Shown: one piece after another, positions 16,821 to 63,584 of the stretch
How the letters are laid out: every line of letters begins with the position of its first letter
How positions within the stretch are numbered: the stretch's first letter is position 1
Assembly: GCF_963675165.1 (NCBI RefSeq)
Contig: NC_087380.1
Location: 1,851,803-1,915,802, forward strand
Length of the DNA: 64,000 nucleotides
Source of the DNA: Halichondria panicea
Taxonomy: Eukaryota > Porifera > Demospongiae > Suberitida > Halichondriidae
Direction of reading: 5' to 3'
Notes under the pieces: generated by a model
The model's input: the letters and a program-made list of their open reading frames with translations, nothing else
The model's database searches: none
What the model was told of the DNA's origin: nothing
Translations under genes and position numbers: made by a program

Positions 16821-19800
16821 ATGTCTGATCTCTCCTCCACCGTTAGCCCCCGGGGCCATGGCCCTCCAGGTGAGCTACCTATAATGTTGAGGTTATGAGC
16901 AGCTAGCATATGCATGGATATTGATAATCGTGTCTTTAGTAGACGTGTGGGAAGCTCACTAGTATTTCACTCAGCTCTACATGTTTTGCTGTCGCTATGT
17001 AAACAACCTGTTAGTATAATTTTAGTTGTGTGCTGTCTTGGTACATAATAGACGCTTGTTGAGTGTATGCTGTCACTTTCTGTCGCATTCCATTATAATT
17101 CTTGTGGTTGAAGCTTCTGCCCGCTAACGAGCAATTAAAAGGTGTTGTGTTTCTCTCTCATTGACAGTGTACAGTCCATACATTGTAATACGGTACAATC
17201 TGTCACTAGACTCACATAATTATAGGACTTTCATTGCTTTGTGGATTACCTTTTAGGCATTGTAACTTCCTCTATAGCTATGTCAGTGTGTGATATATGT
17301 TACTACTATCATTGTGGTGCTTGTATGGTCCCATCTCTGCACCCCCACTACAGTGACCCCTCCTCCTCTGTTTCTGTACTTAATACGTGACTTCCGTCAA
17401 TTTTAATGCTTACCAGTTCGTGAACCCTGTACACGATTAGATTAATCTATTGATAGCGGTTTGTGTGTTCCTATCGCGATTATCTGTACATAATGCAATG
17501 ACAGCTAACTTGTTACATGTATCACCGATTTGTGCAAGCATTGTGTTTTCATTAGTATTATAAATAATGTCCTCCTTGCAATAACTGCCAGGTCCACATG
17601 TGAATAATTATCAATTGGCTTGAAGTTGAAAGTGTATTTTTTCAGTGTGTTTTATCATCCCAATGGGAAAATTGATTACTGAGTGTTTTGTTAGGGAGAT
17701 GTGTTACTCATTGACCGTGTTGATCTTAGCAACTGAATACAAGCACAGATGTAAACACCTCACCGTGATGATGTAACTTCACACCACCTTACTTTCAATG
17801 ACTCACACTGTTTGCTGCCTTGCATATACATAGTAACATGCCTTGTTTTAGAATTATCTCACAATGTGGCAGGGAGTATTAAAGTACAACTCACACTAGG
17901 AACTATTATATCATTACTTTAGACCCTGCTTGAGTAGCTTCTCGTCCTGGTGAGTTCATTTTTATATCCTGGCTGGGTTATATCCTGACTGGGAAACCTG
18001 GTGTCTTATCTAGGTAATCATGAATGTACTGTAGGTGTCATACATGTACAGCTGCTTGGAAAGCAATCAAATTGCCTGTAGTGTACTGTACAGAGTTACC
18101 TCTCTATCAGTGTGCTCTCACTATCAGTGTGCTCTCACTATCAGTGTGCTCTCTATCAGTATGCTCCTCTATCAGTGTGCTCTCTCTGTCAGTGTGCTCT
18201 CTCTATCAGTGTGCTCTCTCTATCAGTGTGCTCCTCTATCAGTGTGCTCTCTCTATCAGTATGCTCCTCTATCAATATGCTCTCTCTATCAGTGTGCCCT
18301 ATCTATCAGTGTGCTCTCTCTATCAGTGTGCTCTCTCTATCAGTATGCTCCTCTATCAGTGTGCTCTCTCTATCAGTATGCTCCTCTATCAGTGTGCTCT
18401 CTCTATCAGTATGCTCCCCTATCAGTGTGTGTGTTTATTGTTGTCCTTATTGAGACCATTTCAGTATCTACAAAGCTTTGCCTATCTCTCAAGTGAAGCA
18501 CTAGTAGAGAGTTAGTGTGAGGTGTGGTGTGTGTGTGAGGTGTTAGCTGGTGTGTGTGAGGTGTTAGCTGGTGTGTGTGAGGTGTTAGCTGGTGTAGAGG
18601 TGTTAGCTGGTGTGTGTGAGGTGTGTTGTGTGGTGTTGAGTATGTAACAACTACTTAATTCATGTGCAAACACTTGCCATTGTTAGCATATTGTCACAAA
18701 TTCCATTCACTAATTGTTCCTCACACCACACACACACACACTCACCACCCACACACACACTCACACTCAAGTTTGATACATGTATTCACTATTCGAGCTC
18801 TAAGGACTTTAGGAAAAATATTGAATCCATAGCAATTCTTTCCATGCTGTTTTTATTAGTCATAATTCGTAGCTACTCTTGTTTCTAACTATGGTAGTGT
18901 TTGACTGTTATTGTTTCCCTACCTGTAGCCCCACCCCCTCGTCATCCCGGCCTGTCGCTAAGCAGCTGCCCACCCCTCCCCCCTCGAGTGGCCCCTCGTA
19001 GAGCCTCGGACGTCCCCACTCCACCACGACTGTCCTCCAACAGACCAGGTGAGGGTGACCTCTAGTGTGGGTGGTATCCATCAGGGGGTCAGCTTACAGT
19101 CGAATATTTGTCACTTACTGTGGATAAGAAAACAGTGTATTTGCACTACACATGGACCTGTACTATTGTTAGGTGTAGAATTACAAACATTTGGAGTATG
19201 ATTACCATAACAGCATGTGTGTGTGTGTAGTAGGTACTGTAGTGACCTTGGGCAGACTAACAACTAGCAGTGGCTGTAATGTAGAGGTGGTCTGCTAACA
19301 CAGGTTGAAGCATATAGTATGCTAGGCTTCTTAACACGGCTGTATGTATTATAGAGGATGTCGTAATTATGTATGTGGGGTGGCCTCGATCGCTCTTCAT
19401 TTTCAGTGTTGATTTTCCTATGTAATATAGCAAGAATTATTGGTGTACTAGTACTACCTGTACTAGTAGTGGTGTGTGTGTTACTAGGCATACTATCATC
19501 ACTACATCTTGTGGTCATGAGGAGGAGTGCTACCACACTGCCAAGTTGGCACACTTGCTCGGGAAATTAACACTGATTGATGTTGTATCTTAGGTTGATA
19601 CTCTGCAAGTATGCTTGGGAAGAGGCATGAACTAGAAACCAAGATTTCTGTATATAATTACCGTATTACTAGAATATTTTGCGAGTGAAAAACCTTTGTG
19701 AGTGATTTGCAAATCAGTAGAAAAAGTGACCCTTTGCGATCTAACTACTGTGTTCTGGCAAGGTGTGTATTTACCAGTACTAATTTAGGTTTTACGATTT

Positions 19801-21547
19801 TATTGTTGCAAATTGATCAATTCAACCCTCACAAAGTTCGCATATGTAGAACATTCTAGTAATACGGTATACCAAGCTTCTTAATACAATGGAATGTACA
19901 CTGTATGCAATAGCCGTCATTCTGTTTTCTTGGTAAAATCATTTTCTCTCTGTACATGTGCCAGTTCTCCTAATGATAATTATAACCCCCACCTCCTCCT
20001 CACACACCCACACACACACACAGTGATAAGTCGAGCTCTGACAGTGGACGATGAGATTGGCTATGGTCATCACAATAGGAACTCTCCGATGACTCCACCA
20101 CACCCCTCTATGGGAGGATCTGCCCCGCCCACTCCCAGTCGCCCCATGGCCACTCCTCGCAAGACGAGTATCGGCACACCCTTCGCTAGAGGGTCATTGT
20201 CTGGCCCAGTAGTGCATCCGGAACAGTGAGTGTAGAGTGTGTGTGCGGGGGGGGGTGTGGGTGGGTGAGGGGGGGTGTGGAGTGCCATTGCTCTCTCAAA
20301 AGAATTTTTTTAGTTTCCAAAGGCCAAATTTTGTTTTATTTTGAGCGAGTGTACTGGTAATTAAGTGTGTGTCCTGAATGATTGTGGCACAAGACACTAT
20401 TTGATAGTAGTCCAACAATGGAATCACTATAATTATGTAGCTATATAAGTCGATTTGTATGCCTCCATTTTTACCATGAATCTGTCTGTCATAGGGTGAC
20501 CAAAGAATAGACAAATTTCTCTCTATCGTTACATGTACAGCATGTGTAGTATACACGTAGTAGACTGAGTAGATATTCAGTTGACTGAGTTCTTTATTCA
20601 TTTTCAGGGATATGTACGTGACTACGGATCAGTTTGCCCCCAACTCGTACCACCCCACCCCCTCCCCCTCTGTGGGGGGTGTGCAGGCCGCACCCATGCA
20701 GACACAGGACTGGTACTGGCCAGACATCTCTAAGTGAGTCTGTGCTTCACTATTAAGTTTATCAAGTTTGTATACCTTTAGTTTTGGCCACCATGTTATA
20801 GCCTCTAGACTTTTATGCCATGCTGGTTTGTGTGTATGCTGAGTGTGTGTTTGTTATAGAACAACTATTATATCCCCTCACACACACATACACAAACACT
20901 GTGTAAACACTGCCTTGCATGTATATAATTACTGTATCATTAAGGCAGACTTTCACATACATACAACGTGTACATACATACACACACACTGTATCGAGTA
21001 TAGTAGCTGCATGTATCATTGAGCCCCACACACACACACACACACACACTTCCACCCCCCACACACACACTTCCACCCCCCACACACACTTCCACCCCCA
21101 CACACGCACACTTTTACTTCCACACGCACACACTTCCACCCACCCCACCCCCCCCACAGAGAGGAGGTGACGGAGATCATGAAGGACATGCCTGACGGAG
21201 CCTTCCTGGTACGAGACGCTGCACGGGTACCTGGCTACTACACTCTCACACTACGCAAGAGCGGCGTGAATAGACTCATCAGAATCATGCACCGTGACGG
21301 TCACTATGGTTTCGCCGAGCCCCTAGAGTTCCCGTCAGTCATGGCACTCATAGACTACTATCGCACGCACACGCTCGCCCCGTATAGTCCAAAGTTGGAT
21401 ATTACTCTGGGGATTGCTGTGTCTAAGGACGTGTGGTTACAGGCGAAGATGCCAGACGTGGGGGAGAACGGTGGGAGAGAGGTGAGTGTTGTGTGTGTGT
21501 GTGTGTGTGTGTGTGTAGGGGGCGTAGGGGAAGACGGCGGGAGAGAG

Positions 21548-24500: not shown

Positions 24501-27248
24501 AGCCCAAGGGAGCACTGTCTAGATGATCTCACGATGAATTGAAATAATTTGTGAAAAGCCGACTACCTAAAATTCAGACCCAATTGCTTCAGAAGTTCAG
24601 ATTACTGGTAGATCTAAAGTGCTGCCACATTATGCTGTCGACTTAAACGCCTAGGATTCACTTAAAGAAGGCTAAACACATCAATACAGTGGTTTTCCTT
24701 ACCTTTGCAGGCTATACTGCAAGAGCACTGCAACCACAATGTAGTAAATATAGTATTTTGGTTGGCTTCTGTTAGTAACAAGCCAACAAAATTACTTGCT
24801 ATTATTATGGCCTGCAAAATGCAAACTGTAACTGGTTTTAATTTGGCAATTTCAAAACTGCCAAATTAGTGGACCTAATTGCTGTAGTAGCCTAAGACGT
24901 CAAATTAATCAAATTCTAATAGCTCACTCGCCAAATAATTATAATAGCCACTAAATGTTCCAGGTGTCTCATATTTTGTCTGACTGAAGTGATGGTAGCT
25001 CTGATGGTAGCTCAGCTAACTTGTTGCTTGGTTCATTGTGGCAAAATGATATGAGCTAAAACTTGTATAAACTTGCTATAGGGAGTGGAGGGCCTGTATT
25101 TACTAGGCTCAAAATTGGATATTTCCGAAAGCAGCTTGTTGACCTCAAGCATTATATAGAAGGAGTGCTGTGAAAGTAGAGTAGTAACCCCTTGAGCTGT
25201 GTGAAAAGTCTGCAATAGCCAGTATTTAACCCAATTGATTTTTGTGATGTGGGTGGACTAAAATAACACAGACAGGTAATCACTACATTGTGGTTGCAGT
25301 GCTCTTGGAGTATAGCCTGCAAAGGTATGGAAAACCACTGTACAACGCTCTAAAAATAGATGTAGGTCTTGCACAACCAATCATTCATTTACAATATGAA
25401 ACTGTGAGCATGCCCAGCTCTGACCATTACTATATGTACACATACCTGAGGTCAATTAGTGGTAGTTTCTTTTTGTTTTTAAACTGATATTTTAAGTGAG
25501 GTGAAAAAGGTTGTAGACTAAGAGTGTAAATTCTAATCACATTTTTGTATTACTATATAAACACAATGAATGCTACAAGTTACACTTGTATTCTTCCCCC
25601 CCCCCCACCCCCCAGCGTGCCCTCCCCCCTGGTCCGAGTGAGAAGCCCCCTGCCATGAGACCGAGGGTGGCCACAGTTGCACAGTTACCACCACCCAGGG
25701 TCGTCGACTACCCTCACTTCAATGTGAGTCACTAGCACACACATAACTGTATGAATGGCCAGTAGTAGTCTAAATGATGCTGTGTACAACGGTGTGCTCT
25801 ATTAGTGTTCTGTCCTCATTGGTTGAATATACCCTAAACTGCTTGCCTTAAATCATTGCTTGAATGTCTATAGTTGTTCATTAGTTTGATAGAGAGTGTA
25901 CAGTGCTGCCTTGTGTACGTGTATGTCTCCTTCCTTGCAGTCTCAACAGCTGATCAGCTACAAGGATCTGAAGGTGTCACGTGACCTGCCGCACTTTTTA
26001 GAGTCAGCCTGGATGAACCCAAGCATCTCGTGAGTCAACCAATATCTCTTGGTGCAGTTATAGCTATACTGAGTATCCCTGTCAGTAATGATCCCCAAAT
26101 ATACATGTGCAATGCATGTGCACATTTGCTATGTATTTCCAAGTACAGTAGCCCACATGTATGTACCATCCAACCACTGTGTAGACCATAATCTAGTTAG
26201 CCTACCCCATTGGCTTGTACGAGAAGACATTCAGCTGTTCCAGGTGTTTTTACTTAGTGGTGTGTGGTTGCTAGCTTCCACATATCCAGTGTTAAATTAC
26301 CGTATAGCGCAAAATTTTCGAGGCACTTATGTTTCGTGGATTGGCCTCTAAAAGCCATTTCGTTGCACAATGTTTGTGGGATGGCTGCTTACCGGAAGCC
26401 ACGCCTTAAATCTTTGCACGTTATAGCAGGTAATTTAACAATTAATTTTTCGTGGACTTAATTTTTGTGACCCACGAAATCTGCGAAAATTCCGTGCTGT
26501 ACGGTATATCACATTGTAGCTATGTGTTCATTTTGAGCATTGCTTGTTGAGGCGATGTTTGGGCACCTTTCATACCGTATAGTGGTGGCATGGAGTGATT
26601 GTTGGTACCATTTACTTGTACAATAATGTACCTTATTTTGAAGTCACCCCCCCCCCCTCTCCTCCCTCAGGAGAGATGGTTCTCGAGACATGCTCACTGG
26701 TAAATCCAACGGGACCTTCCTGGTTCGACCTAAGGGTAATGTGGAGGAGTCCTCAACCATGCCTTGTCACACACACACCATCGACATTGTGTAAGTAAAG
26801 GAGAGACATAGTTCATTGCTGTGCCAGTGTGGTTTCTATATATATATAGAGAGAGAGGCCATTAGCTAGATGAAAATCACAATTAATTTATTTGTAACTT
26901 GACAATGAGCCTTAATCGGTAACTGTACACTGTACATGCATGTTGCTCTGAAACCCACTTATTACACCAATAGTTTGTTTTTGTACATTGTATACATGGT
27001 TGCTTGTATCAGATTATGTGATTTTTGATCACTTTCCTCTTTCTCCCCTGTGCAGAGATGGAGGCAGGTTCAAGAGGATCCCTGTGTACAGAGACCCTGC
27101 TGGGGGGTACGGATTTGCATCACCATTCGAATTTGACTCTCTGCTCAGTTTAGTTCTGTACTATGCCACCAACACGATGGAGAAACACAACCCTGAACTG
27201 GAGACAATGCTTAAATACCCTGCATTCCATGTGGACAGGGGCCGTTAG
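16821..27248 (+). CDS. PIK3R: PI3-kinase regulatory subunit, p85/p55-like
   Basis: Fourteen exons: 16821-16869, 18929-19048, 20024-20225, 20608-20733, 21160-21481, 21831-21944, 22473-22591, 22857-23033, 23277-23411, 23972-24098, 25616-25723, 25941-26029, 26671-26790, 27056-27248. They sum to 2,001 nt, 666 aa. A Pro-rich N-terminus (about 1-60) has a class II SH3 ligand 'PPLPPR'. The nSH2 starts at '[12 protein letters not shown]' with FLVR at 181-184. The iSH2 coiled coil spans about 274-455. A Pro-rich linker precedes the cSH2 with FLVR at 579-582 and a C-terminal '[19 protein letters not shown]'. In animals this subunit binds and restrains p110 through iSH2 and recruits it to phospho-YxxM motifs. 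The N-terminal SH3 and RhoGAP-like domains of vertebrate p85alpha/beta are absent, as in p55 forms. The next gene starts 165 bp after the stop. Confidence 0.93.
18100..18430. repeat. About 17-bp minisatellite in p85 intron 1
   Basis: Around twenty copies of a 'tctctatcagtgtgctc' motif with length variants. All three forward frames stay open, producing spurious Ser/Leu/Cys-rich ORFs. Confidence 0.95.
18505..18640. repeat. GT-rich 'gtgtgaggtgttagctg' tandem repeat
   Basis: Several imperfect copies of a roughly 21-bp unit immediately downstream of the previous minisatellite, still in p85 intron 1. Confidence 0.9.
19659..19869. mobile_element. MITE, 'TACCGT..CTAGAAT' family (copy 2, complete)
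   Basis: Both ends read taccgtattactagaat (inverted at the right end). The interior contains 'gcgatctaact', 'tttaccagtac' and 'gcaaattgatcaatt', shared with the copies at 3323-3510 and about 28030-28190. It lies in p85 intron 2. Confidence 0.8.
21025..21145. repeat. CA-rich tandem repeat before p85 exon 5
   Basis: (CA)n with interspersed 'cttccaccccc' units immediately before the acceptor at 21160. It provides an extended C-rich tract. Confidence 0.9.
21485..21655. repeat. GT microsatellite with a duplicated piece of exon 5 end
   Basis: Three (GT)n blocks alternate with two copies of 'ggggaagacggcgggagagaggt', which resembles the last bases of p85 exon 5 plus its donor (21465-21487). The donor region was apparently amplified twice, creating decoy donor-like sites within the intron. 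Confidence 0.85.
24166..25515. mobile_element. Non-autonomous DNA element with long nested inverted repeats
   Basis: The left arm (about 24166-24290) and right arm (about 25390-25515) are inverted copies, sharing 'acaacctttttcacctcact', 'ttgacctcaggtatgtgtac' and 'gagctgggcatgctcaca'. A second inverted pair lies inside (about 24690-24745 and 25276-25343). No transposase ORF is present. It lies in p85 intron 10. Confidence 0.75.
26298..26506. mobile_element. MITE, 'TACCGTATAGC..ATTTTCG' family
   Basis: Inverted ends of about 23 bp (taccgtatagcgcaaaattt / aaaattccgtgctgtacggta). The interior carries 'cgtgga' and 'cacgaaat' pieces typical of this family here. It lies in p85 intron 12. Confidence 0.7.
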
Positions 27249-27372
27249 TAACTGAACTAGCAGCTGTACAGTATTGTATGTGTATAGTGTAGGATTCTTT
27301 TTCTGTGGGTGCATGTACACTTTTTTGATGTGTGGAAATTTCAATTTAAACTTCCTGTTGTCATCATAATAT

Positions 27373-30400: not shown

Positions 30401-31418
30401 GATTCCAGGCTCCTGACTCCCATACAGGACTGGATACAAACCAATGGATTCATTCCCATTCAGAATATACTGGTTGAGGTGGAAAAGTCTTGTCAGGTGC
30501 AGGTATCAAGCCTTGCAGACACAGAGTGCACCACCAACCAGCCTGTAGCTGCAGCGATCATTGACCTAGCCACTGTGGTTGGTGGAGTGGTGGGAGGAGC
30601 GGTGGGGTTGATCCTTCTGGTGGGTGTTGTTGTCATAGTGATTGCTGTACTGTTGTTGAAGAGTAGGAGACAGAAGATGATCGTCCACAGAACAACAAAG
30701 TAAGTGAATCAATAATTTTACTAGAGCATTGAAGTGCAAACCCTCGACGTTAATTTGTGATTTGATGTAGTCTACAGCCTCGAATCAAAGCCGTGTGTAC
30801 ATACATGTACATAGGCCACATGCAGCTTACTCACTTTTATTCGAAAACGAAACATCAAAAAATAGCTAGCCAACTTTACCTTGTTGTGTTGGGATAAAAA
30901 CAGTGCTATCTGAGTATACACAGAACGACAGACAGACTGAATGACCGACTATATACTATAAACCCGTGACGCCGCGGCGCACCTCTGGTTAATTATGTAT
31001 CTCTCTACTGTTCTGAATTTGTACAAATTAACTATATCTACTCCCCAGACATGACCTACCACCAGTGTCGCTAAAGGGTGTGGTCAGTACTGGTGAGATA
31101 CAATCATACAAGGTAATGGAAATGGGTCACGAATACGAGGAAGTGTCCAAGTTCCAACGAGCCATTGGTGGAACACCACCCTTACATACAACTGGCTCCG
31201 AAAGCAAGTATGTTATAAAGACTGAGTCATCACCACCCACTCCACCCACTCCACAACCCTCACAAGCGACTAAGGCTGCCGGAAATGATATTGAGTTTAC
31301 AGAGTGCGTTGCTTACAGCAGTGCACGACCACCCACAGTCACCCCCCACATCCCACAAGCTTATGAACTAATACCCAACCCCCTGTATGCTACTGTTGAC
31401 TATTTGCATACTGTATAA
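27414..31418 (+). CDS. Receptor A: Ig-like + 3 CCP + TM + YxxM tail
   Basis: Exons 27414-27516, 27578-27949, 28216-28389, 29445-29648, 29724-29933, 30107-30180, 30245-30699 and 31049-31418 give 653 aa with every phase matching. A signal peptide (MNKLQGG..LTGAAQLLLVCG) precedes an Ig-like domain (Cys in 'SLIC' and 'TCC', closing 'SPTGSYCC'). Three CCP/sushi domains follow, each with four Cys and a Trp near the end. A membrane-proximal Cys module ('HCGCGF', 'RCFPGSD') ends in a Val/Ile/Leu/Gly TM helix and a basic anchor. The tail of about 130 aa has YKVM (551-554), 'HEYEEV', Pro-rich 'PPTPPTP' and NPLY (641-644). YxxM is the p85 SH2 consensus; NPxY suits PTB domains. The acceptor at 30245 is AAG rather than the CAG of its paralogues. 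A PI3K-coupled surface-receptor role is inferred; the ligand is unknown. Confidence 0.88.
28030..28190. mobile_element. MITE, 'TACCGT..CTAGAAT' family (copy 3, partial)
   Basis: Shares 'cgccatctagctattgcgttctgcc', 'tttaccagtac' and 'gcgaattgatca' with the copies at 3323 and 19659. The outer ends are eroded. It lies in an intron of receptor A. Confidence 0.65.
28411..28500. mobile_element. Partial 'CCGTATAG..ATTTTCG' MITE end
   Basis: gccgtatagtgggaaatttt followed by 'cgcgggtgaacg' matches the left end of the same family as 26298-26506. No matching right end was found nearby. Confidence 0.45.
28790..28900. mobile_element. Fragment of pogo-like MITE (see 55975-56389)
   Basis: Contains 'cctcactattccgaccaagctgca' and 'ccggattaacgagagtc', matching the right part of the complete element in receptor C. 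It lies in receptor A intron 3. Confidence 0.7.
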
Positions 31419-34701: not shown

Positions 34702-34792
34702 TTAGCTGTATGTCTGTATGAGACAAAAAGAGAATGTGTACTAAATCTGGTTTGAATTCAGAAGGCATTTGGAACGGAACCATACCTACGGT

Positions 34793-39174: not shown

Positions 39175-39179
39175 CAGTT

Positions 39180-47223: not shown

Positions 47224-47421
47224 TAACTGAACTAGCAGCTGTACAGTATTGTATGTGTATGTGTAGGATTATTTTTCTGTGTATGTATGTATATATGTGG
47301 GTGCATGTACACATTTGATGTGTGGAAGTTGCAATCACAATTTCAGACTTCCTGTTGTCATCTGATTAAAGTCATTGGTAAATTATAATTTGGAGTAGAT
47401 CTATGCATACATGAAGACAGC

Positions 47422-50400: not shown

Positions 50401-53400
50401 ACCAGGACCTGTGTGAGTGGAGGGAGATGGAGTGGGTCACCTCCAACTTGTCAATGTGAGTTTTGTAACTCGTACACAGTTTGCATTTCGTATATAGACA
50501 TAGGGCTCACTACTGCTCCACCCATCACCTGCTCTGACCTGATTAATCCGACCAATGGAACGATCGGCTATGATATGGGGACTGCTAGTTCAAGACCAGT
50601 GTACACGGTGGCCACCTACACCTGTGACACTGGATACACTCTCAATGGAGACACTACCAGGACTTGTAGGAGTGATGGAATTTGGAGTGGATCAAGTCCA
50701 GTTTGTCAGCGTAAGTACTAGCTTGTGGAATGGATTTTCTTTTTTTCATGGTATGCATGGATTTCCATACAGAGATACTGATCTGTTCCGACCTCCCTCT
50801 CGTCACTAATGGAGACGTTTTCTACACTGCTGGATTCCCTGACAACAGATCTCTCTATTCTGGAGCTACCTACACGTGCAATCCTGGCTACACTCTCATT
50901 GGAGGGAGCACCACCAGGACCTGTGTAAGTGGAGGGATCTGGAGTGGGTCACCTCCAACTTGTCAATGTGAGTTCTGTAACTCGTACACAGTTTGCATTT
51001 CGTGTATAGACATAGGGCTCACTACTGCTCCACCCATCACCTGCTCTGACCTGATTAATCCGACCAATGGAATGATCGGCTATGATATGGGGACTGCTAG
51101 TTCAAGACCAGTGTACACGGTGGCCACCTACACCTGTGACACTGGATACACTCTCAATGGAGACACTACCAGGACTTGTAGGAGTGATGGAATTTGGAGT
51201 GGATCAAGTCCAGTTTGTCAGCGTAAGTACTAGCTTGTGGAATGGATTTTCTTTTTTTCATGGTATGCATGGATTTCCATACAGAGATACTGATCTGTTC
51301 TGACCTCACTCTCACCAATGGAGATATTGTCTACACTGCTGGATTCCCTGACAACAGATCTCTCTATTCTGGAGCTACCTACACGTGCAATCCTGGCTAC
51401 ACTCTCATTGGAGGGAGCACCACCAGGACCTGTGTGAGTGGAGGGATTTGGAGTGGGTCACCTCCAACTTGTCAATGTGAGTTCTGTAACTCGTACACAG
51501 TTTGCATTTCGTGTATAGACATAGGGCTCACTACTGCTCCACCCATTACCTGCTCTGACCTGATTAATCCGACCAATGGAACGATCGGCTATGATATGGG
51601 GACTGCTAGTTCAAGACCAGTGTACACTGTGGCCACCTACACCTGTGGCACTGGATACACTCTCAATGGAGGCAGCACCACCAGGGTCTGTGTAAGTGGA
51701 GGGAAGTGGGATGGTGCTGCTCCTCACTGTCCACGTATGTTCTATTATTGCAATTGGTCGCACTGTGTCACATGATAATGTACACAGCTGTGCATTGTGG
51801 GACTCCTCCGCCTATTACCAATGGATCTCCTGGGACACCAACAACCACAACATTCACAGGGACAGTGACCTACAGCTGTGTCAGTGGATACTGGATCTCT
51901 CGTGGAGTCACCACAGCAATTGCCACCTGTAAGGCTGACAATACCTGGGGACCTCTACCAACTTGTAAACGTATGTGAAATTGTTATATTATACTGCATT
52001 GACATTGCACTCAGTTGTGGATTGTGGCTCTCCTCCCCCTGGTATCAATGTCTTTCCTGTGGCTCCGATCAGAACAATCTACCAAGTGACAGTCCTCTAC
52101 ACCTGTGACAGTGGGTATGAGGTCTCTAATGGAGTCACCACAGCAACAGCTACCTGTGAGACTACTGGCGATTGGGAACCTCTACCAACTTGTACAAGTA
52201 TGGTTCAGGGAATTTGTTACTTCACAATTTTATCTACTACATATACAGTTGTGGACTGTGGTGAACCTCTCACTATTCCCAATGGATCTCCTGAGACACC
52301 AACCATCACAACATTTGGAGGGACAGTGTATTACACGTGTAACGTAAGATTTCTCATATCAGGATCAGCCACTGTGACTTGTGAGGCTAGTGGGAGTTGG
52401 AGCAAAAGACCAACTTGCTCAGGTGAGTGGCTCTGCATGAAGTAACTGAAATATGATTGATACTCATAGTGGTATGTTTTAACATTATATTTGTTGATAG
52501 CCATCTGCAATGACCAACAAATTGAAAATGGTAACATCATCTACAATCATGATACCACACCGAGATCAGAGGGAGCCATTGCTGTGTACTCGTGTATGTC
52601 TGGTTACCAGCTGTCAGGTGTGAGCACTAGGATCTGTGTGGACAGTCACAGAGGAATGGGTGGTGCGTGGACTGGATCAATACCAAGTTGTATAGGTATG
52701 AAAACAATAATTTATTAAGTAGCAATATCCATTCCGTATTATGTTACTTAATTGTACATTTCCAATCATGCAGCAATCTGTGATAGCATCACCCTCGCCC
52801 ATGGAGTGATCAGCTATAGTCCATCTACTACTCCCAGACTAGAGGGAGGTGTGGCTATACACAGCTGTGGTGAGGGGTACGGACTGTCTCCTAGCATGAG
52901 AGCAAAAACATGTCAGCCTGACAGGACATGGAGTGGAGAGAACATCACTTGCCAACGTAAATATTGGGTATATCATATAGATGATACACTTGTGTGTATT
53001 GTCCACAGGTATCATGTGCGCTGCTCTCCTTAATGTTACAAATTGGACCATTGATTACTCTAGTGGTACTACTGCACCGTATGACTATGGAACAACAGCT
53101 ACTTATCAATGCAACTATGGACATATGTTAACAAGTGGAAGAGACAGAGTGAGGACCTGTACTGGTGATGGTAGCAGTCGTAGTGGTCGGTGGAATGGAA
53201 CTGCTCCTCAATGTCCACGTATGTTCTAGATTATTTGTTCATATAATTTTATATCCCATTGCTACGTTGTTGCTAAGTGCAACATGCAGCATAATGCACT
53301 GCTGAAAGTCAAAATGTACTAACCACAAAACGCCTCTCTGGCATTAATTAGACAGACAATTAAATTAAATAATCATGAGAAATAACAAGTATCAAAGTAA

Positions 53401-56400
53401 GTCCAGCCATGCAGGAATGTTCAGCACTGCTGGAGTTTCTTCTTTGCAACCATGCAGGTTTCAAAGTTCGAAGATTCTGCGTTCCTAGACCTAGTCCTCG
53501 ACCTCGTGATGCATGTCAATTCTGCTTCACCATAGCACTATAGAAGCGGCTCTTTTTGCTGGGGGCTTGAGCTGTTTTGCAGCAGTGTAGAGGCGAGCTT
53601 CTTTGGCTTGGTTGTAAGGCCGAGGGTATAGACCACCGTGGAGGGCTGCTCGAGCAGCAGTTACACTGAGTAGTGGGGTGGGGCTGTCTCTTCGCAGCAG
53701 TAGTAAGTGGGGTGGGACTGTTTCTTTGCAGCAGTATAGTGAGGTGGGGCTGTTTTGCAGTGGTTTCAGCGTTGGAACTCCAACAATTTTGTGTCAAGCC
53801 ATTCGTCGGTCATGCCAATCTTGTACGCTGCAGATACTGGCGTCTAGAAGAGAAAAGAGATGGAGCTGTGCATGTCTAGAGTTAATTGTCTCTGTCATCT
53901 TTTTGTGCAGTGTTACTAAGATAGTGTTATGTTGCTATGCCCTCGGAATATAAACTATAGTTATAACACGTGCACTCGGGATGCATGGCATATATCCCTC
54001 ATGCCAGTGTTATATAACTATAACTTAATGTTGTATACACACAGCTGTGGACTGTGGGGCTCCTCTGTCTATTACTAATGGATCTCGTGGGATACCAACA
54101 ACCACAACATTCACAGGGACAGTGACCTACAGCTGTGTCACTGGATATTGGATCTCTCCAGGAGTCACCACAGCAACGGCTACCTGTATGGCTAATAGGA
54201 CCTGGGGACCTCTACCAACTTGTCAACGTATGTGAAATTTCTACCAAACTTCTGCATTGACATTGTTCTCACCCACATAGTTTTGGATTGTGGCTCTCCT
54301 CCCACTGTTCTCAATGCATCTCCTGGAACACCCACCAGAACAACCTACCAAGGGACAGTGACCTACACCTGTGACAGTAGATATAAAGTCTCCAATGGAG
54401 TCACCAAAGCAACGGCTACCTGTCAGGATAACGGAAACTGGAGACCTCTACCAACTTGTACAAGTATGGTTCAGGGATTCTTCTAACTTCAGAATTGTAA
54501 TTATATACATACAGTTGTGGACTGTGGCCTTCCTCCCACCATTATCAATGGATCTCCTGGGACACCAACCAGCACAACATTTGAAGGGACAGTGTCTTAC
54601 ACATGCAACAATAGATATTACATGTCGGGATCAGCCACTGTGACTTGTGAGGCTAGTGGGAGTTGGAGCACAAGACCAACTTGCTCAGGTCTGTGAAATA
54701 TAATTATAATAATTTAGTGGTGACATGATTGTTAATAGCCATCTGCAATGATAATCAAATTGAAAATGGTTACATCGACTATGCTCCTAATACCACACCG
54801 AAAACGGAGGGAACCATTGCTGCGTACTCGTGTGTGTCTGGTTACCAACTGTCTGGTGTGAAATTTAGCATTGATTACATGTGTACATGTACACATAATT
54901 ATAGTTAGCTGTTGACAGGGAGCCCTTACAAAATAATAATTATTCCTCGGTGCGCATGCGCTAGTGAGGTATACGGTAGTGTGTTTGTGTCTGTGTGTCT
55001 GTAGACTGCTACAGCTACTCAAGGATTAATGAAGTTCAAGTAAGAGTTTCTATTTCTCGTTATCTTAAAATTGAAGAGTGCCTTAAGAGACTGGAGCTGC
55101 ACTTATGCTTACAACGAGTGCCGCTTATACAAATCGTTTGCCTATGGTATGCATAAGTCATTTTCTCCTGCAGACATTGTGTGTCCTCCTCTACCAACCA
55201 TTACCAATGGTATGATCTCCTACTCTCCTGATGTCACCCCTGACTATGACCTGGGAACTAATGCAACCATCACTTGTGAGGCTGGGTTCTATCTTGAGGG
55301 TAATGAGGTACGAGTGTGTATGGATGATGATGGAATGTGGAGTGGTCGGGAGCCAAGCTGTGTCCGTAAGTCATCCGCTTGAACCAACTGTAACATGCAG
55401 CATGTATTTGCAGAGCCTAAGTAACTGCCTGGTACTCTAATTCAAGCATTCACTGGTGCACTAGCTAGTGTAAGCATTATTCTCACTACACACAGCCATT
55501 CAGTGTCCTCCCCTTGAACTAAATTGATCATGCAGCTATTGAATGTCCTCCTCTACTGACCGTTACTAATGGAGTTATCACCTACGCTCCCGGCAACACA
55601 CCTGCCTATGGTCTGGGTATTGTGGCCACTTATGCCTGTGACGCTGGGTTTGTTCTGGACCTCTCCCTGGGAGGATCTGAGATGAGAACTTGTGTTGATA
55701 ATGGACTGGATGCTATTGGAATTTTTGATAGACTGGCTCCAATATGTGCCCGTAAGCTAAGTCATTAGCTACCTTATTGATTATAAACGGGTACTAATTT
55801 TAGCGAATTTGTATTTAACGCTAAATTAAGTACGTTTAATAAAACGCAATTAAAAAATTATGAATCTCATTTAAAAAAAATGTTTTTCCCTTACAATAAT
55901 GTAATGTAATGGAAAGCTAGCTTTTTTTCATCTGTATCTGACTCCAAACTTTCCATTCAACCTTAAAACTCATACAGTAGACTCTCGCTATTCCGGCTCC
56001 CTGAAGTACGGCCACCTCGATATACCGGCCATTTGCCTTGGCACGGAATGCTAGCTATATGTTTACTGCACAAAACTCACCCTGAAGTACGGCCACTCGC
56101 TATTCCGGTTATATACCGGCCAGTGCCAAACAAGGTTTTCAATGTAATTTTATACGTGTATTACGGCCGGATATGACGTTTTGGGTGTGGTTTAGCAAAT
56201 AAAATTGAATTACACTTAAATAGAGAACAAAATGATTCATTATCCTACATTATCCTCGAGACAAGAACCGCAAAAATAGTTATTAGATTCGAGGTAAGGT
56301 CGTTTTTAAGCCGCGGCTATTTCCTGAGCTACAGCCACCTCGCTATTCCGGCCAAGCTGCATGGTCACCGGATTAACGAGAGTCTACTGTACTTGTACCC

Positions 56401-57982
56401 TAAAAACAGAGAAAAATTTGAAAAATTACTACCCGTCTATAATAGTAACATTAAGGTAGTCTAAAAAAGTTTTTGTATTTCATTCATATCTTTATTTTTA
56501 ATTGGTGATTATTTTACTGTTAATATCCACTTTGTACAGCCATTGAATGTCCTTCTTTACCGGATATTACAAATGGCATGGTATCCTACGAATCTGACAA
56601 TTTGGATAGCTTAGCCCTGGGAGCTGTGGCCACCTACAGCTGTACCGCTGGGTTCTTCCTGGATGTTTCTGAAGGAGATGAATTTAGGGTCTGTTTGGAC
56701 AATGATGGAATGGGCACCATTGGAGTGTGGAGTGGTCAGGAGCCAAGCACCATTGGAGTGTGGAGTGGTCAGGAGCCAAGCTGTGTCTGTAAGATATCAG
56801 CCTAAGCCGTTTAGCAATTGCATTGTGTGTTTCGCAATATTTTTACCTAGCTATCTAGTATCTTTACGTTTCGCATGGTAATATTATCGCTATCTAGTAC
56901 TTTCCAGTCAAGTGATTCATGAGCTGTTTGTAATTTTCTCAGCCGTTCCCCCTCCTGTACGCTCAGTGTTGTTCCAACTCAGACTCACAAACATCAACAA
57001 CTGTCCTGACTGGGTGGTGAGTGCTAAGAATTTCCTAAAGCAACAGTAATATTTTTCTTTATAATTTATGCAGGACCAGGATGGGAGGATAGAAGCTGTA
57101 ATGAGTGAGTTTGCTACCGAGGTGGAGAGTCACTGTGGGTGTGGTTTCTTAAGCATGGTCATGACTGCCCCTCTCTTCCGCTGCTTCCCTGGGTCGGACA
57201 AAGCTGTCACATTCCGAGCCACTCTAACCGATTCCAGGCTCCTCACTCCCATACAGGACTGGATACAAACCAATGGATTCATTCCCATTCAGAATGTACT
57301 GATTGAGGTGGACAAGTCTTGTCCGGTGCAGGTATCCAGCTTTACAGACACAGAGTGCACCAACCAGCCTACAGCTGCAGGGAGCAGTGACATAGCCGCT
57401 GTGGTTGGGGGAGTAGTGGAAGGAGTTGTAGGAGTGGTCATTGTCCTCATCATTGTGGTTGGTATTGTTGTCATAGTGATTGCTGTACTGGTGTTCAAAA
57501 GCAGGAGAGAGAAGCTGACCGTCAACAAAACAACGAAGTGTGTCAATCAAACATTTTATCATTCATTTCTCTATACTTATAGTTTATTGTGTTACAAAGG
57601 TTATGCCATTCTGCAATTTACTATCCTGCCATTCCCTCTCAGACCTGATCTACCACCAGTGTCACTAAAGGGTGTGGTCAACACTGGTGAGATACAATCG
57701 TACGAGATGATGGAAATGGGTCACGAATACGAGGAAGTGTCCAAGTTCCAACGAGCCATCGGTGGAGAATATGAGATCATTGGAGCACCCTCACAGACAA
57801 CTGGCTCCGAGAGCAAAACTCTTATAAAGACCGAGCTATCACCACCCACTCCACCCACACCACAACCCTCACAAGCGACTAAGCCTGCCAGAAATGATAC
57901 TGACTTTACAGAGTGCATTGCTTACAGCAGTGCACGACCACCCACAGTTGCCCCCCACACCCTACAGGCTTATGAACTATAA
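47422..57982 (+). CDS. Receptor C: giant Ig-like + 27 CCP + TM + YxxM receptor
   Basis: Signal peptide exon 47422-47503; Ig-like exon 47564-47935 (same 372-nt length as in A); CCP 47984-48160. Seven two-exon CCP units follow: 48213-48407 and 48450-48662, then the same pair at +512-bp steps, the last being 51285-51476 and 51519-51734. Further CCPs: 51788-51970, 52015-52197, 52249-52422, 52501-52695, 52774-52956, 53009-53218, 54045-54227, 54281-54463, 54515-54688, 55174-55365, 55536-55751, 56540-56788. Then 56943-57016, 57074-57537 (Cys module, TM) and 57643-57982 (tail). The total is 6,690 nt, about 2,229 aa, if the half-exon at 54739 is skipped. Every CCP exon is phase 1-1. The tail carries YEMM (57701-57712), 'HEYEEV' and 'GEYEII'. 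CCP arrays act in adhesion, complement regulation and recognition; which applies here is unknown. Confidence 0.85.
48213..51796. repeat. 512-bp tandem array, seven units, each with two CCP exons
   Basis: Unit starts are at 48213, 48725, 49237, 49749, 50261, 50773 and 51285. Units 1-6 differ at only a handful of positions; unit 7 is more diverged at both ends. Variant sites repeat with a three-unit period: units 1/4, 2/5 and 3/6 share GRWSG/cgtgtatag, GRWSG/cgtatatag and GIWSG/cgtgtatag respectively, suggesting a 1,536-bp block duplication. Confidence 0.97.
53219..54044. other. Enlarged intron of receptor C with a GC-rich tandem repeat
   Basis: Contains three or four copies of a roughly 35-bp 'gtggggtggggctgttt..gcagcag' unit (about 53670-53765) and a region resembling neither neighbours nor CCP. 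The small ORFs here are repeat-derived. It may be a SINE-like insertion; no boundaries could be fixed. Confidence 0.45.
54739..54858 (+). pseudogene. Truncated CCP exon in receptor C
   Basis: Has an acceptor and the first half of an 'AICND' type CCP (compare 41494-41688 and 52501-52695), but the sequence diverges after 'GYQLSGV', losing the last two Cys and the donor. The dispersed repeat (54945-55020) follows closely. Skipping it keeps the 1-1 phase. Confidence 0.8.
55975..56389. mobile_element. Pogo/Tigger-like MITE, 415 bp, TA target
   Basis: The ends cagtagactctcgctattcc and its complement (taacgagagtctactg) are flanked by TA on both sides. The end sequence resembles Tc1/mariner pogo-type elements. 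No transposase ORF. It lies in a receptor C intron. Confidence 0.85.
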
Positions 57983-58574
57983 CATGAAACTGCAAACTGA
58001 TAGAAATTGTGTTGACTGCTCTAGCAATTTAATGATACAGCTTGTATTTGCATGCATAGGCCTTTTTTTTGGCTATTACAAACTTATGTTCAAAGATCTT
58101 TGGTCTGCATTTGCATTTACACGTTCTTGCATGGGTAATGTCATCACCAGTCCTTCATGAATATGAATATGACAAGGTTTCCTCATTGTAGTAGCCATTC
58201 CCACCACTGTGTGTCTAGACACATTGGTATTTGTGAGAAGATAGTTTTTTGACAATCAGTTGTGTGCTTAAGCAGAAGGAGTGGTTTGTGCTTGCTTTCA
58301 ATATGATAATTATAGAGTGCTCTAAGTGTTTATTGTGAGCATTGCTTGTTGTGTTGCCTTGAGGCAATGATTTTGCACCTCTCAATAGCCAGGGCTGTGA
58401 TAAGATATAGAACTCCAGCAAATGGTGCATATTGCTATTGCTCCATCCTAGTCAATCTGCTGATACTATATACCATGTAGATCTCATATATATATAGACT
58501 ACCTGTATACTATAATTATTGTGTTGGCCAATCATATATTTTCATAATTATAACCACCCATGCACCCCACCTCA
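57983..58574. other. 3' flank of receptor C leading into p85-derived sequence
   Basis: Collinear with 46063-46655. No gene is seen. Confidence 0.65.
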
Positions 58575-58696
58575 GGAGGAGATGATTCTCGAGACATGCT
58601 CACTGGCATGGTAAACCTTTCCTGGTTCGACCCAAGGATAATGTGGAGGAGTCCTCAACCATGCCTTGTCATACACACATACCACCGACATTGTAA
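58575..58696 (+). pseudogene. Degenerate copy of p85 exon 13 (upstream of receptor D)
   Basis: Retains 'ctcgagacatgctcactgg', 'cctggttcgacc' and 'gtggaggagtcctcaacca' from p85 exon 13, with indels that break the frame. The exon 14 copy expected about 300 bp downstream has been deleted; only its 3' flank ('tgtgggtgcatgtac', 'acttcctgttgtcat') remains near 58950. Confidence 0.85.
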
Positions 58697-59069
58697 GTTA
58701 AAGGGAAGAGCAGTGCATTAATTGCATTGCTGTAGTGACTGTGTCTATAGAGAGAGGCCATATGAAAAATTGATTGACTACAAGTATGTATCTTGTACTG
58801 GTCAATAGAGCTTCAATTGGTACTGTACAGTTCTATGCCTTATATTGCTTTGAAAATTGATGCCAATAGCTTGTTGTATGATATGATACAGAGTCTAAAT
58901 GATTTTCTTTCTGTGTCTATGTGCTCAAGAGTCCTCTTATGCATGCATGTGGGTGCATGTACATTTTATACTTCCTGTTGTCATTAATTAAAGTGAATAC
59001 ATGTAGTCTACATGTAGATTCTAATAGATCTACACTAGAATTACCAATAACTGCATGCAAGAAGACAGC

Positions 59070-62000
59070 ATGAAAAAGCTACAAGGTGACTGTGTCTCTT
59101 GGCTGGTCCTTTTCACTGGAGTTGCTCAGCTCCTACTAGTGTGTGGAGAGGGTATGTTTTAACTGACCTGCTATAAATGAACATAGACTGTACATAATGA
59201 TATGCATACAAGAGTGTACCTGTCTCTGGGATCAACCAACATCACCACTAACAACACTGAGATCCTCATCACTGATGTTGGAGATGATGTTCGGGATGGT
59301 CGTCCTTCTCTCATCTGTCACACTGACCTTGTGGCCTGTTGTACACCCAGTGAGACAATGGCAAAAGGTATTGGACTTTGGCGCTATCCAAATGGGACTC
59401 GTGTTCCTGGTGGATCAGGAGCATCTCGTCCGTATGTGTCATTAAGAAATGTTCAATCCATTAAACTGGCACGTAGAGACAGTGTTAACCCCCCTCCCCT
59501 GAGTCCAACTGGTTCCTACTGTTGTACTATACCAACTACTGGAGGAGAGATGATCTTCTGTGCCAACCTGGGTGAGTGGTTCTGTAATCTTGGATTCCAT
59601 CCACAAATCTGATTCTGTTTCCAGTTGTGTGCCTGTCTCTCCCTGCCCTGAACAATGGAATAGTCTCATACAGCCACTTAACACTGGGTCTGAACACTGT
59701 GGCCATCTACACCTGCAACACCGGCTACACTCTCAATGGAGGCACCACCAGGACTTGCGAAAGTGATGGAGTGTGGAGTGGGTCAGATCCATCTTGTCTT
59801 CGTAAGTGAATATTCACTTTTGTGCTGTTTGAATGTTTTTTTGTGTTTCATACTGAGATAGCAGCCTGTTCTGACCTCACTCTCACCAATGGAGACATTG
59901 TCTACACTGATGGATCCCCTGACAACAGACCTATCGGCTCTAGAGCTACCTACAGCTGCAATCTTGGCTACACTATCACAGGAGGGAGCACCACCCACCA
60001 GGACCTGTGTGAGTGGAAGGATCTGGAGTGGGTCACCTCCAACTTGTCAAGGTGAGTTCTGTAACTCGTACACAGTTTGTATTTCAAATAATTATGTATA
60101 GACACAAGATCGACTGTTGCTCCACCCACAACGTGCTCTGACCTGACTAATCCGACCAATGGAATGACTGCTTACAATATGGGGACTGCTAGTCCAAGAC
60201 CAGTGGACACTGTGGCCACCTACACCTGTGTCACTGGCTACACTCTCAATGGAGTCACCACCAGGACTTGTGGGAGTGATGGAGTGTGGAATGGGTCACC
60301 TCCAGTGTGTCAGCGTAAGTGGAATGGAATGTGGACATTTTTATTGAGTGTACCTGCATGCTTCTCTACAGGTATCTGCTCTGACTTACCCTTACTGACC
60401 AATGGGATGATTGGTGGATCCACTAACAAGAGACCAGTGGACACTGTGGCCATCTTCAGATGTAACACTGGATACACTCTCAATGAAGACGCTACTAAGA
60501 CTTGTGGAAATGGTGGAATGTGGAGTGGGTCATCTCCAACATGTGAAGGTCATAATTATTAGTTAAGTGGTAGTACATGCACCGTGACTCCAGCTTATTC
60601 CTACAGCCATTATATGTCTTCCTCTATGGGCCATTACCAATGCCATGATCTCCTACTCTCCTGATGTCATGCCTGACTATGACCTGGGAACTGAGGCAAC
60701 CTACACTTGTGAGGCTGGGTTCTATCTTGAGGGTAATGAGGTACGAATGTGTATGGATGATGATGGAATGGACGCCATTGGAGTGTGGAGTGCCAAGATG
60801 TGTCCGTAAGTTATCAGTGAAAGTGTGTAGGTCACTGGTACTGTACAAACCCGAATATGTGTATATTGTTTGGTCATATGCAATTAACTTATCACAGCCA
60901 TCACTTAATTGTCCTCATCTCCTTGTTCGTACCAACACTTCAATATCTTACCCTCCTCGCACTAGTTCACTTTTCCCCTATGGAACACAAGCAATCTACT
61001 CCAATAATAATTGTATTGTCCGCAGGTATCACATGTTCTGCTCTCCCTGATATTATGAATGGGACCATCAATTACCTTAGAGGTACTACTGCACCATATG
61101 ACTTTGGAACAACAACTACTTATCAATGCAACTATGGACATGTGTTAACAAGTGGAGACAGTGAGAGGACTTGTACTGGTGATGGTAGCACTCCTAGTGG
61201 TAGTGGTCTGTGGGATGGTGCTGCTCCTCAATGTCCATGTATGCTATATTATTGCATTATCGGATTACATGATAATGTACACAAACAGCTGTGGACTGTA
61301 GTACTCCTCCGTCTATTATCAATGGATCTCCTGGGATACCAACAACCACAACATTCACAGGGACAGTGACCTACAGCTGTAATGATGGCTATGCACTCTT
61401 TGGGATTGCTACAAGTACTTGTCAGGCAAATGCAACTTGGAGCAGACCACCATGAATGCAAAGGTATATGTGCACATTCATTGTTTATATGTGCATATTA
61501 CATGTACCATACACTACCGTATAGCAGGTATATTTCCAGGTTATCAACTTTCGCGGAAATGCCTTTAGAAATGTTTTCGCAGATTTAATTTTCGCGGAAT
61601 AGCAGCATTTATGAAGCATTATGCATGCATGCAATATTGGATATAAATGTTCGCGGTATGCTTAATCAGCGAAAACCACGAACATATATACTGGCTATGC
61701 AATACAAAAATTTACCTGGTATATAAGCATGGCTTGTATTTAATATAGTAGCTGCAACTGATTATATATAGCGGTTGACTGTGAGCCGGCCCTTACAGTT
61801 TCTATTAACTGATTGTACACATTACAGGCACTGTACATTTATTAGTCTGTCCTGATCTGATGGATCTAGTCAATGGAAGTATTGCTTATGATATGGAGAC
61901 CAAAGATAACAGACCAGTGAACACTGTGGCCACCTACACCTGTAACACTGGCTACACTCTCATTGGAGACAGCACTAGGACTTGTGGGAGTGATGAATTG

Positions 62001-63584
62001 TGGAGTGGATCGGATCTAACGTGTGAAGGTTGGTGGAAAACGTTTACACTGTGTAGTAACAAGTGTTGTTTCTCCTATAGTTCTTATGTGTCCTCCTCTA
62101 CCGGCCATTACCAATGGCATAATCTCCTACTCTCCTGATGTCCCCCCTGACTATGACCTGGGAACTGAGGCAACCTACACTTGTGAGGCTGGGTTCTATC
62201 TTGAGGGTAATGAGGTACGAGTGTGTATGGATGATGATGGAATGGACGCCATTGGAGTGTGGAGTGGTCAGGAGCCAAGCTGTGTCCGTAAGTTTAGGAA
62301 CTGTATTATTTCCCCAGTCGCCCCTCCTCCTGTACGTCCAGTGTTGTTCCAACTCAGACTTACCAACATCAACAACTGTCCTGACTGGGTGGTGAGTGCT
62401 AAGAATGTCCTAAAGCTAAAGCAAACTAACAATTACTTATCTCTCTATACAGGACCAGGATGGGAGGTTAGAAATTGTAACGAATGCGTTTGCTGCCGAG
62501 GTGGAGAGTCATTGTGGGTGTGGTTTCTCAAGCACGGTCATGACTGCCCCTCTCTTCCGCTGCTTCCCTGGGTCGGACAGAGCTGTCACATTCCAAGCCA
62601 CTCTAACCGATTCCAAGCTCCTCACTCCCATACAAGCCTGGATACGGATTCATTCCCATTCAGAATATACTGATTGAGGTGGACAAGTCTTGTCAGGTGC
62701 AGATATCGAGCCTTGCAGATATAGAGTGCACCACCAACCTGTAGCTGCAGCGATCATTGACCTAGCCACTGTGGTTGGTGGAGTGGTGGGAGGAGCGGTG
62801 GGGTTGATCCTTCTGGTGGGCGTTGTTGTCATAGTGATTGCTGTACTGTTGTTGAAGAGTAGGAGACAGAAGATGATCGTCCACAGAACAACAAAGTGAG
62901 TGAATCAATAATTTTACTGGAGCATTGAAGTGCAAACCCTCGGCGTTAATTTGTGATTTGATGTAGTCTACAGCCTCGAATCAAAGCCGCGTGAACATAC
63001 ATATATACATAGGCCACATGCAGCTTACTCACTTTTATTCGAAAACGAAACATCAAAAAATAGCTAGCCAACTTTACCTTGTTGTGTTGGGATAAAAACA
63101 GTGCTATCTCAGTTTACACAGAACGACAGACAGACTGACTGACCGACTATATACTATAAAACTCGTGGCGCCCGCGGCGCATCTCTGGTTAATTATGTAT
63201 CTCTCTACTGTTTTGAATTTGTACAAATTAACTATATCTACATTTCCCCTCCCCAGACATGACCTACCACCAGTGTCGCTAAAGGGTGTGGTCAGTACTG
63301 GTGAGATACAATCATACGAGATAATGGAAATGGGTCACGAATACGAGGAAGTGTCCAAGTTCCAACGAGCCGTTGGTGGAACACCACCCTTACATACAAG
63401 TGGCTCCGAAAGCAAGTATGTTATAAAGACTGAGCCATCACCACCCACTCTACCCACACCACCAACACCACAAACCTCACAAGCGTCTAAGGCTACTAAA
63501 AATGATACTGAGTTTACAGAGTGCATTGCTTACAGCAAGTGCACGGCCACCCACAGTTGCCCTCCACATCCCACCAGCTTATGA
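59070..63584 (+). pseudogene. Receptor D: decayed Ig-like + CCP receptor
   Basis: By homology to A and C it has a signal peptide (59070-59151), Ig-like exon (about 59213-59573), CCPs near 59626-59802, 59860-60051, 60103-60315, 60372-60549, 60607-60807, 60896-61020, 61027-61240, 61290-61461, 61829-62028 and 62082-62288, Cys module (62316-62391, 62454-62897 with TM) and tail (63257-63584). The lesions are independent: the Ig-exon acceptor is shifted by one missing base; a 4-nt insertion lies near 59993; there is a deletion with stop near 60790, an extra base near 61452, and a deletion with frameshift near 62635. The tail frame is open and keeps YEIM (63315-63326) and 'HEYEEV', but its end is frameshifted relative to A. 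Probably a pseudogene; expression of fragments is possible. Confidence 0.8.
61516..61699. mobile_element. MITE, TATAGC family, in receptor D intron
   Basis: Starts accgtatagcaggtatattt and contains repeated 'ttcgcgg' blocks and 'aaccacgaacatatatactggcta' as a diverged right end. Related to 41947-42115. Confidence 0.6.

Follow-up and report, generated by a model that had tools for sequence, protein, structure and literature searches.

A tandem array of CCP receptors with tyrosine-rich tails beside a p85 gene in the sponge Halichondria panicea

In the window, that is the whole 64-kb stretch of Halichondria panicea DNA analysed, a p85 gene is followed by four CCP receptor units, as the first-pass annotation had claimed, and these four are the first members of a larger array in which the 3' end of p85 has been duplicated together with the receptors. 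The locus is probably a lineage-specific array of tandem Ig-like/CCP receptors bearing multi-phosphotyrosine (YxxPhi) tails, along which the p85 3' end has hitchhiked. Its members would be type I receptors composed of a signal peptide, in most units an Ig-like exon, a variable number of CCP/sushi repeats, a SEA-like domain next to the membrane, a transmembrane (TM) segment and a tail of ~110 aa. The array would have arisen next to p85, with a duplication unit running from inside the 3' half of that gene through the first receptor, so that the units inherited the last p85 exons. The p85 linkage looks like a by-product of duplication; the receptors probably act in recognition or adhesion, immune or allorecognition, and perhaps a subset is coupled to PI3K.

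The gene at the array edge is a p85 PI3K regulatory subunit with nSH2-iSH2-cSH2 order, and the earlier statement that it keeps both FLVR arginines is correct. Its features are:

21155..21472, + strand: N-terminal SH2 exon (FLVRDA), Pfam SH2 E 1.3e-11, best PDB matches p85-alpha chains at E 1.3e-33
21837-21950, 22473-22592, 22849-23031 and 23278-23412, + strand: inter-SH2 exons, the first three by PF16454 matches all below the curated Pfam cutoff, the fourth without a Pfam match and assigned from position only
26666-26791, + strand: cSH2a, first part of the C-terminal SH2 (FLVRPK)
27051-27245, + strand: cSH2b, last exon, stop at 27246

At a distance of ~60 kb, and not part of the array, there is a second p85 gene whose nSH2 is 54% identical; no complete second p85 was seen within the 264 kb examined. 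Upstream, a minus-strand neighbour gene (11223-13328) contains DPF/NPF-type motifs; its reading as a PTB gene was dropped, having no Pfam support.

The receptor units of the window are:

27414..27516, + strand: signal-peptide exon of receptor 1 (MNKLQGGCGCVFWLVFLTGAAQLLLVCGQ...), starting ~165 nt 3' of the p85 stop, splice end predicted from GTATGT
27578..31418, + strand: unit 1, putative Ig-like exon, 3 CCP matches, SEA-like/TM exon (open), tail 31047-31418 with YKVM at 31107
32843..46062, + strand: unit 2, p85 relic ~32843-33030, signal peptide 33239, 9 CCP matches, tail 45724-46062 with YEMM at 45784
47029..57982, + strand: unit 3, p85 relic ~47029-47223, putative Ig-like exon 47566-47943, 20 CCP matches including a 512-bp two-CCP tandem (48221-51475), SEA-like/TM exon 57071-57538, tail 57641-57982 with YEMM at 57701
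58570..63584, + strand: unit 4, p85 relic (cSH2a region) 58570-58855, putative Ig-like exon 59214-59579, 10 CCP matches, SEA-like exon with a stop, tail 63255-63584 with YEIM at 63315

All four YxxM motifs begin with TAC and are read in frame with their tail exon. They are kept, as had been noted, even in disrupted copies, namely unit 2, whose SEA-like exon is split over two frames, and unit 4, with a stop in that exon.

The sushi domains score above the Pfam cutoff and are accompanied by a signal peptide, called by pattern, and a TM segment, read off the sequence as a hydrophobic stretch, as expected of CCP/sushi cell-surface receptors. The two other extracellular assignments are tentative, being drawn from sequence pattern and low-confidence models. 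The N-terminal exon has an Ig-like GSYCC pattern and beta strands in a weak model (pLDDT 43), with no Pfam Ig match; the SEA-like exon shows the order helix-strand-strand-helix-strand (pLDDT 46), with no Pfam SEA match and no Foldseek hit for the model at E <= 0.001. There is no sign of positive selection at the exon level: whole-exon omega, from a codon model that logged kappa 1.000, is 0.37-0.57 for array exons and 0.54 for the Ig-like exon.

A genome search, whose counts are lower bounds (one search scored 150 of 279 candidates), found at least 25 receptor tails across 311 kb, all in the same orientation, and at least 8 further tails on the same contig, 1.0-1.8 Mb from the array, the eighth being P0012, i.e. 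C4:233969. At least 40 unit heads are present, all on C4:1.879-2.602 Mb, two of them, near 2.6 Mb, on the minus strand. A 684-kb database contig, which may come from the same individual as the genome, carries 12 listed tails, every one identical to an array tail from 1.897 to 2.193 Mb; the array is thus not a scaffolding join. Related tails occur in the database down to 38-53% identity; the family is that of the PPVSLKGVVSTG-tail receptors.

The last exon of p85 is found at 35 loci or more, p85 itself included, and lies at most 0.9 kb upstream of 32 of the 40 unit heads, which raises the question of why a p85 exon is retained at most of them. In 19 of 20 loci examined (p85 included) a signal-peptide match, in some cases partial, follows within 700 nt on the 3' side, and of the 24 last-exon loci in the 264 kb, 15 are followed by an ectodomain exon after 0.3-0.5 kb. 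The earlier claim that receptors and p85 were duplicated together therefore stands for the 3' part of p85 and fails for the whole gene, since the copies are 3' fragments. In fact, exons iSH2a-c are single-copy in the 264 kb, where the cSH2 exons and two extra iSH2d were copied; 13 weaker nSH2 matches there (35-47% identity) fall on or adjoin cSH2b matches. A genome-wide Pfam SH2 search gives one match in the array region, and p85 intron and inter-SH2 pieces survive in a few units.

The inherited exons would have mostly decayed, leaving the edge p85 alone complete in the stretch examined. The FLVR arginine is lost in 12 of 19 cSH2a copies, five times by CGA to TGA, and 10 of 19 cSH2b copies were classed as broken by frame-breaking indels or stops (20 loci, 19 copies and p85, out of 25 rows, short ones dropped); on these grounds translation of most cSH2b copies as SH2 proteins is unlikely, though the other 9, roughly in frame, may be translated. 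Against simple decay, nonsynonymous differences from p85 in the pooled cSH2b copies number 106 and synonymous ones 74, and this ratio of 1.43 compares with 2.94 expected without constraint (non-independent copies), so some coding constraint is possible.

A possible, if doubtful, reason for this retention is that the receptor promoter lies within the p85 last exon and 3'UTR, a copied coding exon now being regulatory DNA that duplicated units had to keep. The receptor ATG lies beyond an AATAAA, the spacing from last exon to ectodomain exon is kept in many heads, and within the unit-head stretch 26946-27520 the most conserved block is 27051..27275 (+ strand), which comprises the last p85 exon and continues past the stop codon into the first 30 nt of the 3'UTR. 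This block has 0.04-0.63 changes/site/10 sequences vs 0.8-3.3 in the flanks, and its conservation exceeds that of the signal peptide of the receptor itself (0.20-0.25); moreover, broken copies show no codon-position signal (p1/p2/p3 differences 0.031/0.055/0.054). However, in roughly in-frame copies the third position is slightly in excess (0.031/0.035/0.061), and the left edge of the block is an exon edge. The remaining exons of the array are likewise near-flat over codon positions (tail 75/77/89 changes, SEA exon 38/38/58) and much better conserved than introns, as gene conversion on the scale of exons would give. In a comparison whose means come from 72 pairs chosen for an alignable intron with <20% divergence, a choice that biases intron divergence down, exons and introns of the two closest pairs differ to about the same extent (0.010 v 0.015-0.018). 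Scanning the spacer between p85 and receptor for bacterial-type promoters gave 1 site vs 1.1 expected, under a bacterial model that is uninformative for this host. Such a promoter is compatible with the hitchhiking array and would add a reason for keeping the relics. We consider it quite unlikely that the p85 last coding exon and 3'UTR became the neighbouring receptor's promoter and were spread by tandem duplication before ~40 recognition receptors; were this so, the repertoire would be under cis-control derived from a signalling-adaptor gene, and roughly half of the tails could be read by the SH2 domains of that adaptor.

Under the preferred reading of an array with hitchhiking p85 ends, the tails would be multi-site phosphotyrosine docks, with a fixed HEYEEV site, which we take to be a Src-SH2-like consensus, and in most tails another site of YEII type. 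The ECxAY tyrosine is also fixed (one S for C), whereas a Y-x-x-[MIV] site varies and would be a ligand of p85-type SH2 domains only where +3 is Met. The anatomy, the co-duplication of the p85 3' end and the constraint pattern are shown by the sequence; phosphorylation, SH2 partners and biological role are inferred. All 32 of 32 tails scored in this genome have YEEV, the database exceptions being P0095, which lacks the tyrosine (KCEEA), and P0081 (YEKV). The conservation of YxxM proposed earlier fails outside the window: the motif is found in 15 of 25 array tails, and the other 10 and all 8 non-array tails of the same genome lack it. At the +3 codon, 5 nonsynonymous changes are counted vs a mean of ~2 per column (M15/I14/V1); its S=0 is uninformative, Met being encoded by one codon only. 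By contrast, the 13 codons after it, block EMGHEYEEVSKFQ, picked after seeing the data, are strongly constrained (N2:S15 vs N254:S150 elsewhere, Fisher p 3e-5). These counts cover 30 of 33 tails, leaving out the split T1937078, the partial T847671 and C4:234053. A single shuffled tail yields at least one YxxM with probability 0.075-0.125, and since the four window tails are copies of one another they represent one mildly improbable event, not four.

Among database tails, YEMM occurs in 7 of 9 scorable ones (P0080, P0088-P0093) out of 10 rows below 55% identity to every genome tail, P0087 being set aside as it starts inside the motif; P0096 (YEMT) and P0099 (YATY) lack it, and P0082, at 56% identity, has lost the Tyr (GEMI). 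Of all 55 database rows, 17 were unscored because they begin at the motif or beyond it, or have no such motif. Among the 19 tails of the 264 kb, YxxM goes with the lack of an adjacent second-type Ig exon: 11 of 13 such units have it, against 0 of 6 units with that exon adjacent (Fisher p 0.001, relatedness ignored). These units run tail to tail and may contain more than one gene; unit 2113733, where such an exon lies 20 kb upstream, and unit 2043211, with a 23-aa piece of one, were both scored as not adjacent.

The variable site could instead be an endocytosis signal of the YxxPhi type, the AP-2 mu class, rather than a phosphotyrosine dock, any bulky hydrophobic residue serving at +3. This agrees with M, I or V at +3 in 23 of 23 array tails keeping the Tyr, and with the DPF/NPF-type motifs of the minus-strand neighbour; it is nevertheless unlikely, given that the fixed YEEV surroundings and ECxAY tyrosine are unneeded by a bare YxxPhi and that YEMT and YATY occur in distant tails.

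Improbable, judging from the sequence, is a dedicated PI3K-coupled system with selected linkage to its own p85 adaptor and YxxM as key docking site: although the YxxM counts in array and distant tails, the split by second-type Ig exon and the adjoining p85 with both FLVR favour it, the +3 codon is not conserved, the copied p85 pieces come from the 3' end and are in many cases broken, the second p85 gene stands outside the array, and the tails at C4:122-234 kb, without a p85 last exon, are all YxxI. These same-family receptors, at a distance of 1.7 Mb and with no p85 last exon found there, indicate that p85 linkage is not inherent to the receptor type, contrary to the proposed genetic link. From the PI3K proposal of the first-pass annotation, the tandem CCP receptors, partial p85 co-duplication and Tyr-rich tails survive without YxxM conservation; the PI3K-docking claim is narrowed to a subset, and YEEV becomes the tyrosine site to consider first.

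Sponge recognition receptors are poorly defined, and the array offers a concrete contiguous Ig-like/CCP set, with testable tyrosine sites and with tails of a family also represented among diverged database sequences. An immune receptor transcriptome of H. panicea describes Sushi and Ig domain genes, and the words 'PI3K' and 'tandem' are absent from its main text (PMC8242945). A search of titles and abstract openings found no such array named. With respect to PIK3R, the edge gene has the nSH2-iSH2-cSH2 order, unlike the fragmentary array copies. Hydractinia Alr receptors have Ig-type ectodomains and, to our knowledge, no CCP repeats, unlike the sponge array. These candidate allorecognition genes share tyrosine tails with the array; theirs are described as ITAM/ITIM-type (PMC12065747). 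According to excerpts of two reports, the Botryllus schlosseri FcoR/fester genes of the fuhc locus are comparable, being clustered type I receptors that mix Ig and sushi domains and have long tails, with an SCR/sushi exon in fester (PMC3549757) and ITIM, hemITAM and a 'core' Y-x-x-I/L/V motif in FcoR (PMC12065747); the same excerpts do not mention p85 relics. Botryllus belongs to a different phylum, and the likeness is one of domain make-up and tail motifs. In contrast to FcoR, no ITIM ([SIVLT]xYxx[ILV]), nor an ITAM (YxxL/I-x6-12-YxxL/I), was found in the 32 match-trimmed tails of this genome; among the minority of C-terminal extensions examined, however, that of T2162465, identical to P0067, has an ITIM-type VDYLHI and an ITAM-like pair.

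The p85 gene of the window (C4:1851803-1915802, C4 being contig NC_087380.1) is a genuine PI3K regulatory-subunit gene: the best matches of its nSH2 exon are p85-alpha chains, pieces of the inter-SH2 domain lie 3' of that exon, and the cSH2 domain is spread over two exons (cSH2a and cSH2b) with a stop codon at 27246; both FLVR arginines are intact, as the first-pass annotation had claimed. Genome-wide searches (131 Mb, 39 contigs) located a second p85 gene on the opposite strand, about 60 kb upstream, with 54% identity in nSH2.

This p85-type gene lies at C4:1811396-1812823 (minus strand) and has nSH2 and inter-SH2 parts.

On the minus strand, positions 11223-16570 of the window hold a gene with a 701-aa exon and many DPF/NPF-like motifs; its short upstream exons were PTB-like by eye only, and this reading was abandoned, Pfam giving no match. 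An open frame upstream of p85 (13725-14387, minus strand) repeats TAQAWPTATQPAQSIQA-like units in frame.

The receptors 3' of p85 belong to a tandem array whose tail exon was found by genome search in 25 copies of a single orientation (C4:1.8828-2.1936 Mb), and related tails lie beyond it at C4:122-234 kb (seven, the distal cluster) and C4:847 kb (one). Detailed reading of 264 kb of the array, with 19 tails, showed a signal peptide in most units, an Ig-like exon in 16 of the 19, from 1 to 28 CCP matches per unit, and SEA-like and TM exons followed by the tail. The Ig-like exon has at least 150 genome matches, most of them on C4, which makes the array a single branch within a wider expansion. 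More clusters of Ig-like N-terminal exons occur at C4:276-480 kb, C4:1.10-1.15 Mb and C14:2.94 Mb; at none of these places did the tail search give a hit of the array's family. SEA/TM exons were found outside the array in four places at 76-80% identity and, with the same tail family, in four others at 43-58%. The CCP number of the third receptor unit is raised by a tandem repeat of about 512 bp (window 48221-51475), whose near-identical copies have two CCP exons each; a comparable one-CCP repeat of about 243 bp lies at C4:2074395-2078269. Inside the array, flanked by the unit 1 and unit 2 tails, the minus strand has an open frame for a collagen-like protein with a TM-like start (38275-39177). 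A scaffolding artefact is opposed by a 684-kb database contig, possibly from the same individual, all 12 of whose listed tails are identical to array tails.

The proposed co-duplication of receptors and p85 stands for fragments, not for the whole gene: of the inter-SH2 exons, the first three are single-copy within the 264 kb, whereas cSH2b is repeated ahead of receptor after receptor. Across the genome cSH2b was located at 35 loci, p85 among them, and every one falls within C4:1.8788-2.2956 Mb if the nSH2 match and a match of 48% identity at C4:3.67 Mb are left out. The stretch from the p85 3'UTR to the receptor leader marks at least 40 unit heads, all in C4:1.879-2.602 Mb, and cSH2b lies at most 0.9 kb upstream in 32 of 40. 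The last inter-SH2 exon has also left two copies, and some p85 intron fragments survive; these relics indicate that duplication started inside p85 and extended through the first receptor. The relics are decaying. Of 19 cSH2a copies, 7 retain the FLVR arginine, five have a stop in its place (CGA to TGA), three Gln and one Leu, and three are shifted or rearranged there; among 19 full-length cSH2b copies, 10 are broken. Against full decay counts the ratio of 106 nonsynonymous to 74 synonymous changes between cSH2b copies and p85 (1.43 vs 2.94 expected, the copies being non-independent).

The most conserved part of the head, exceeding its flanks several-fold, is the block 27051-27275, composed of the last p85 exon and 30 nt beyond the stop. 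Its codon-position signal is absent in broken copies and weak in the remaining ones, and the receptor ATG lies about 165 nt downstream of the p85 stop. A promoter within the p85 exon fits this pattern. Homogenisation at exon scale also fits: tail, SEA and Ig-like exons too show little difference between codon positions and much stronger conservation than introns, and exon and intron divergence are similar in the two closest copy pairs. The data are compatible with either reading.

A sequence check found all four YxxM codons of the window where they had been annotated; YxxM arises in 7.5-12.5% of shuffled tails. In a tree of 30 tails the Tyr changed once and the +3 codon five times, against an average of about 2 nonsynonymous changes for a column. 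At +3 of the first Tyr, array tails have Met in 15 of 25, Ile in 7 and Val in 1, Tyr being lost in 2; the eight tails outside the array are all YxxI. Among nine scorable database tails less than 55% identical to all tails here, seven have YEMM, one YEMT and one YATY. YxxM is present in none of 6 units with a second Ig type adjoining the tail and in 11 of 13 otherwise (raw counts over related units). The EMGHEYEEVSKFQ block, chosen post hoc, contrasts with the +3 codon in showing 2 nonsynonymous vs 15 synonymous changes in the tree. Over the whole tail, omega comes to 0.56 for the array and 0.22 for the distal cluster.

SH2 specificities differ, p85 binding pYxxM, Src pYEEI and Grb2 pYxN. YEEV is present in 32 of 32 tails of this genome and YE[ED][VL] in all 12 database rows scanned for motifs, the exceptions at this site among database tails being P0095 (KCEEA) and P0081 (YEKV); the Grb2-SH2-like YxN occurs in 17 of 45 tail rows scanned, all distal-type or distant. 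The tails resemble phosphotyrosine docks with several sites, YEEV being the fixed element, and p85 coupling is plausible for a subset of the receptors.

The known counterparts of the array are receptor arrays at allorecognition loci, by likeness in working and not by membership. Botryllus FcoRs have Ig and sushi domains and tails with ITIM, hemITAM and Y-x-x-I/L/V (PMC12065747). In the sponge, the ITIM pattern is absent from the 32 trimmed tails and present in one C-terminal extension (P0067).
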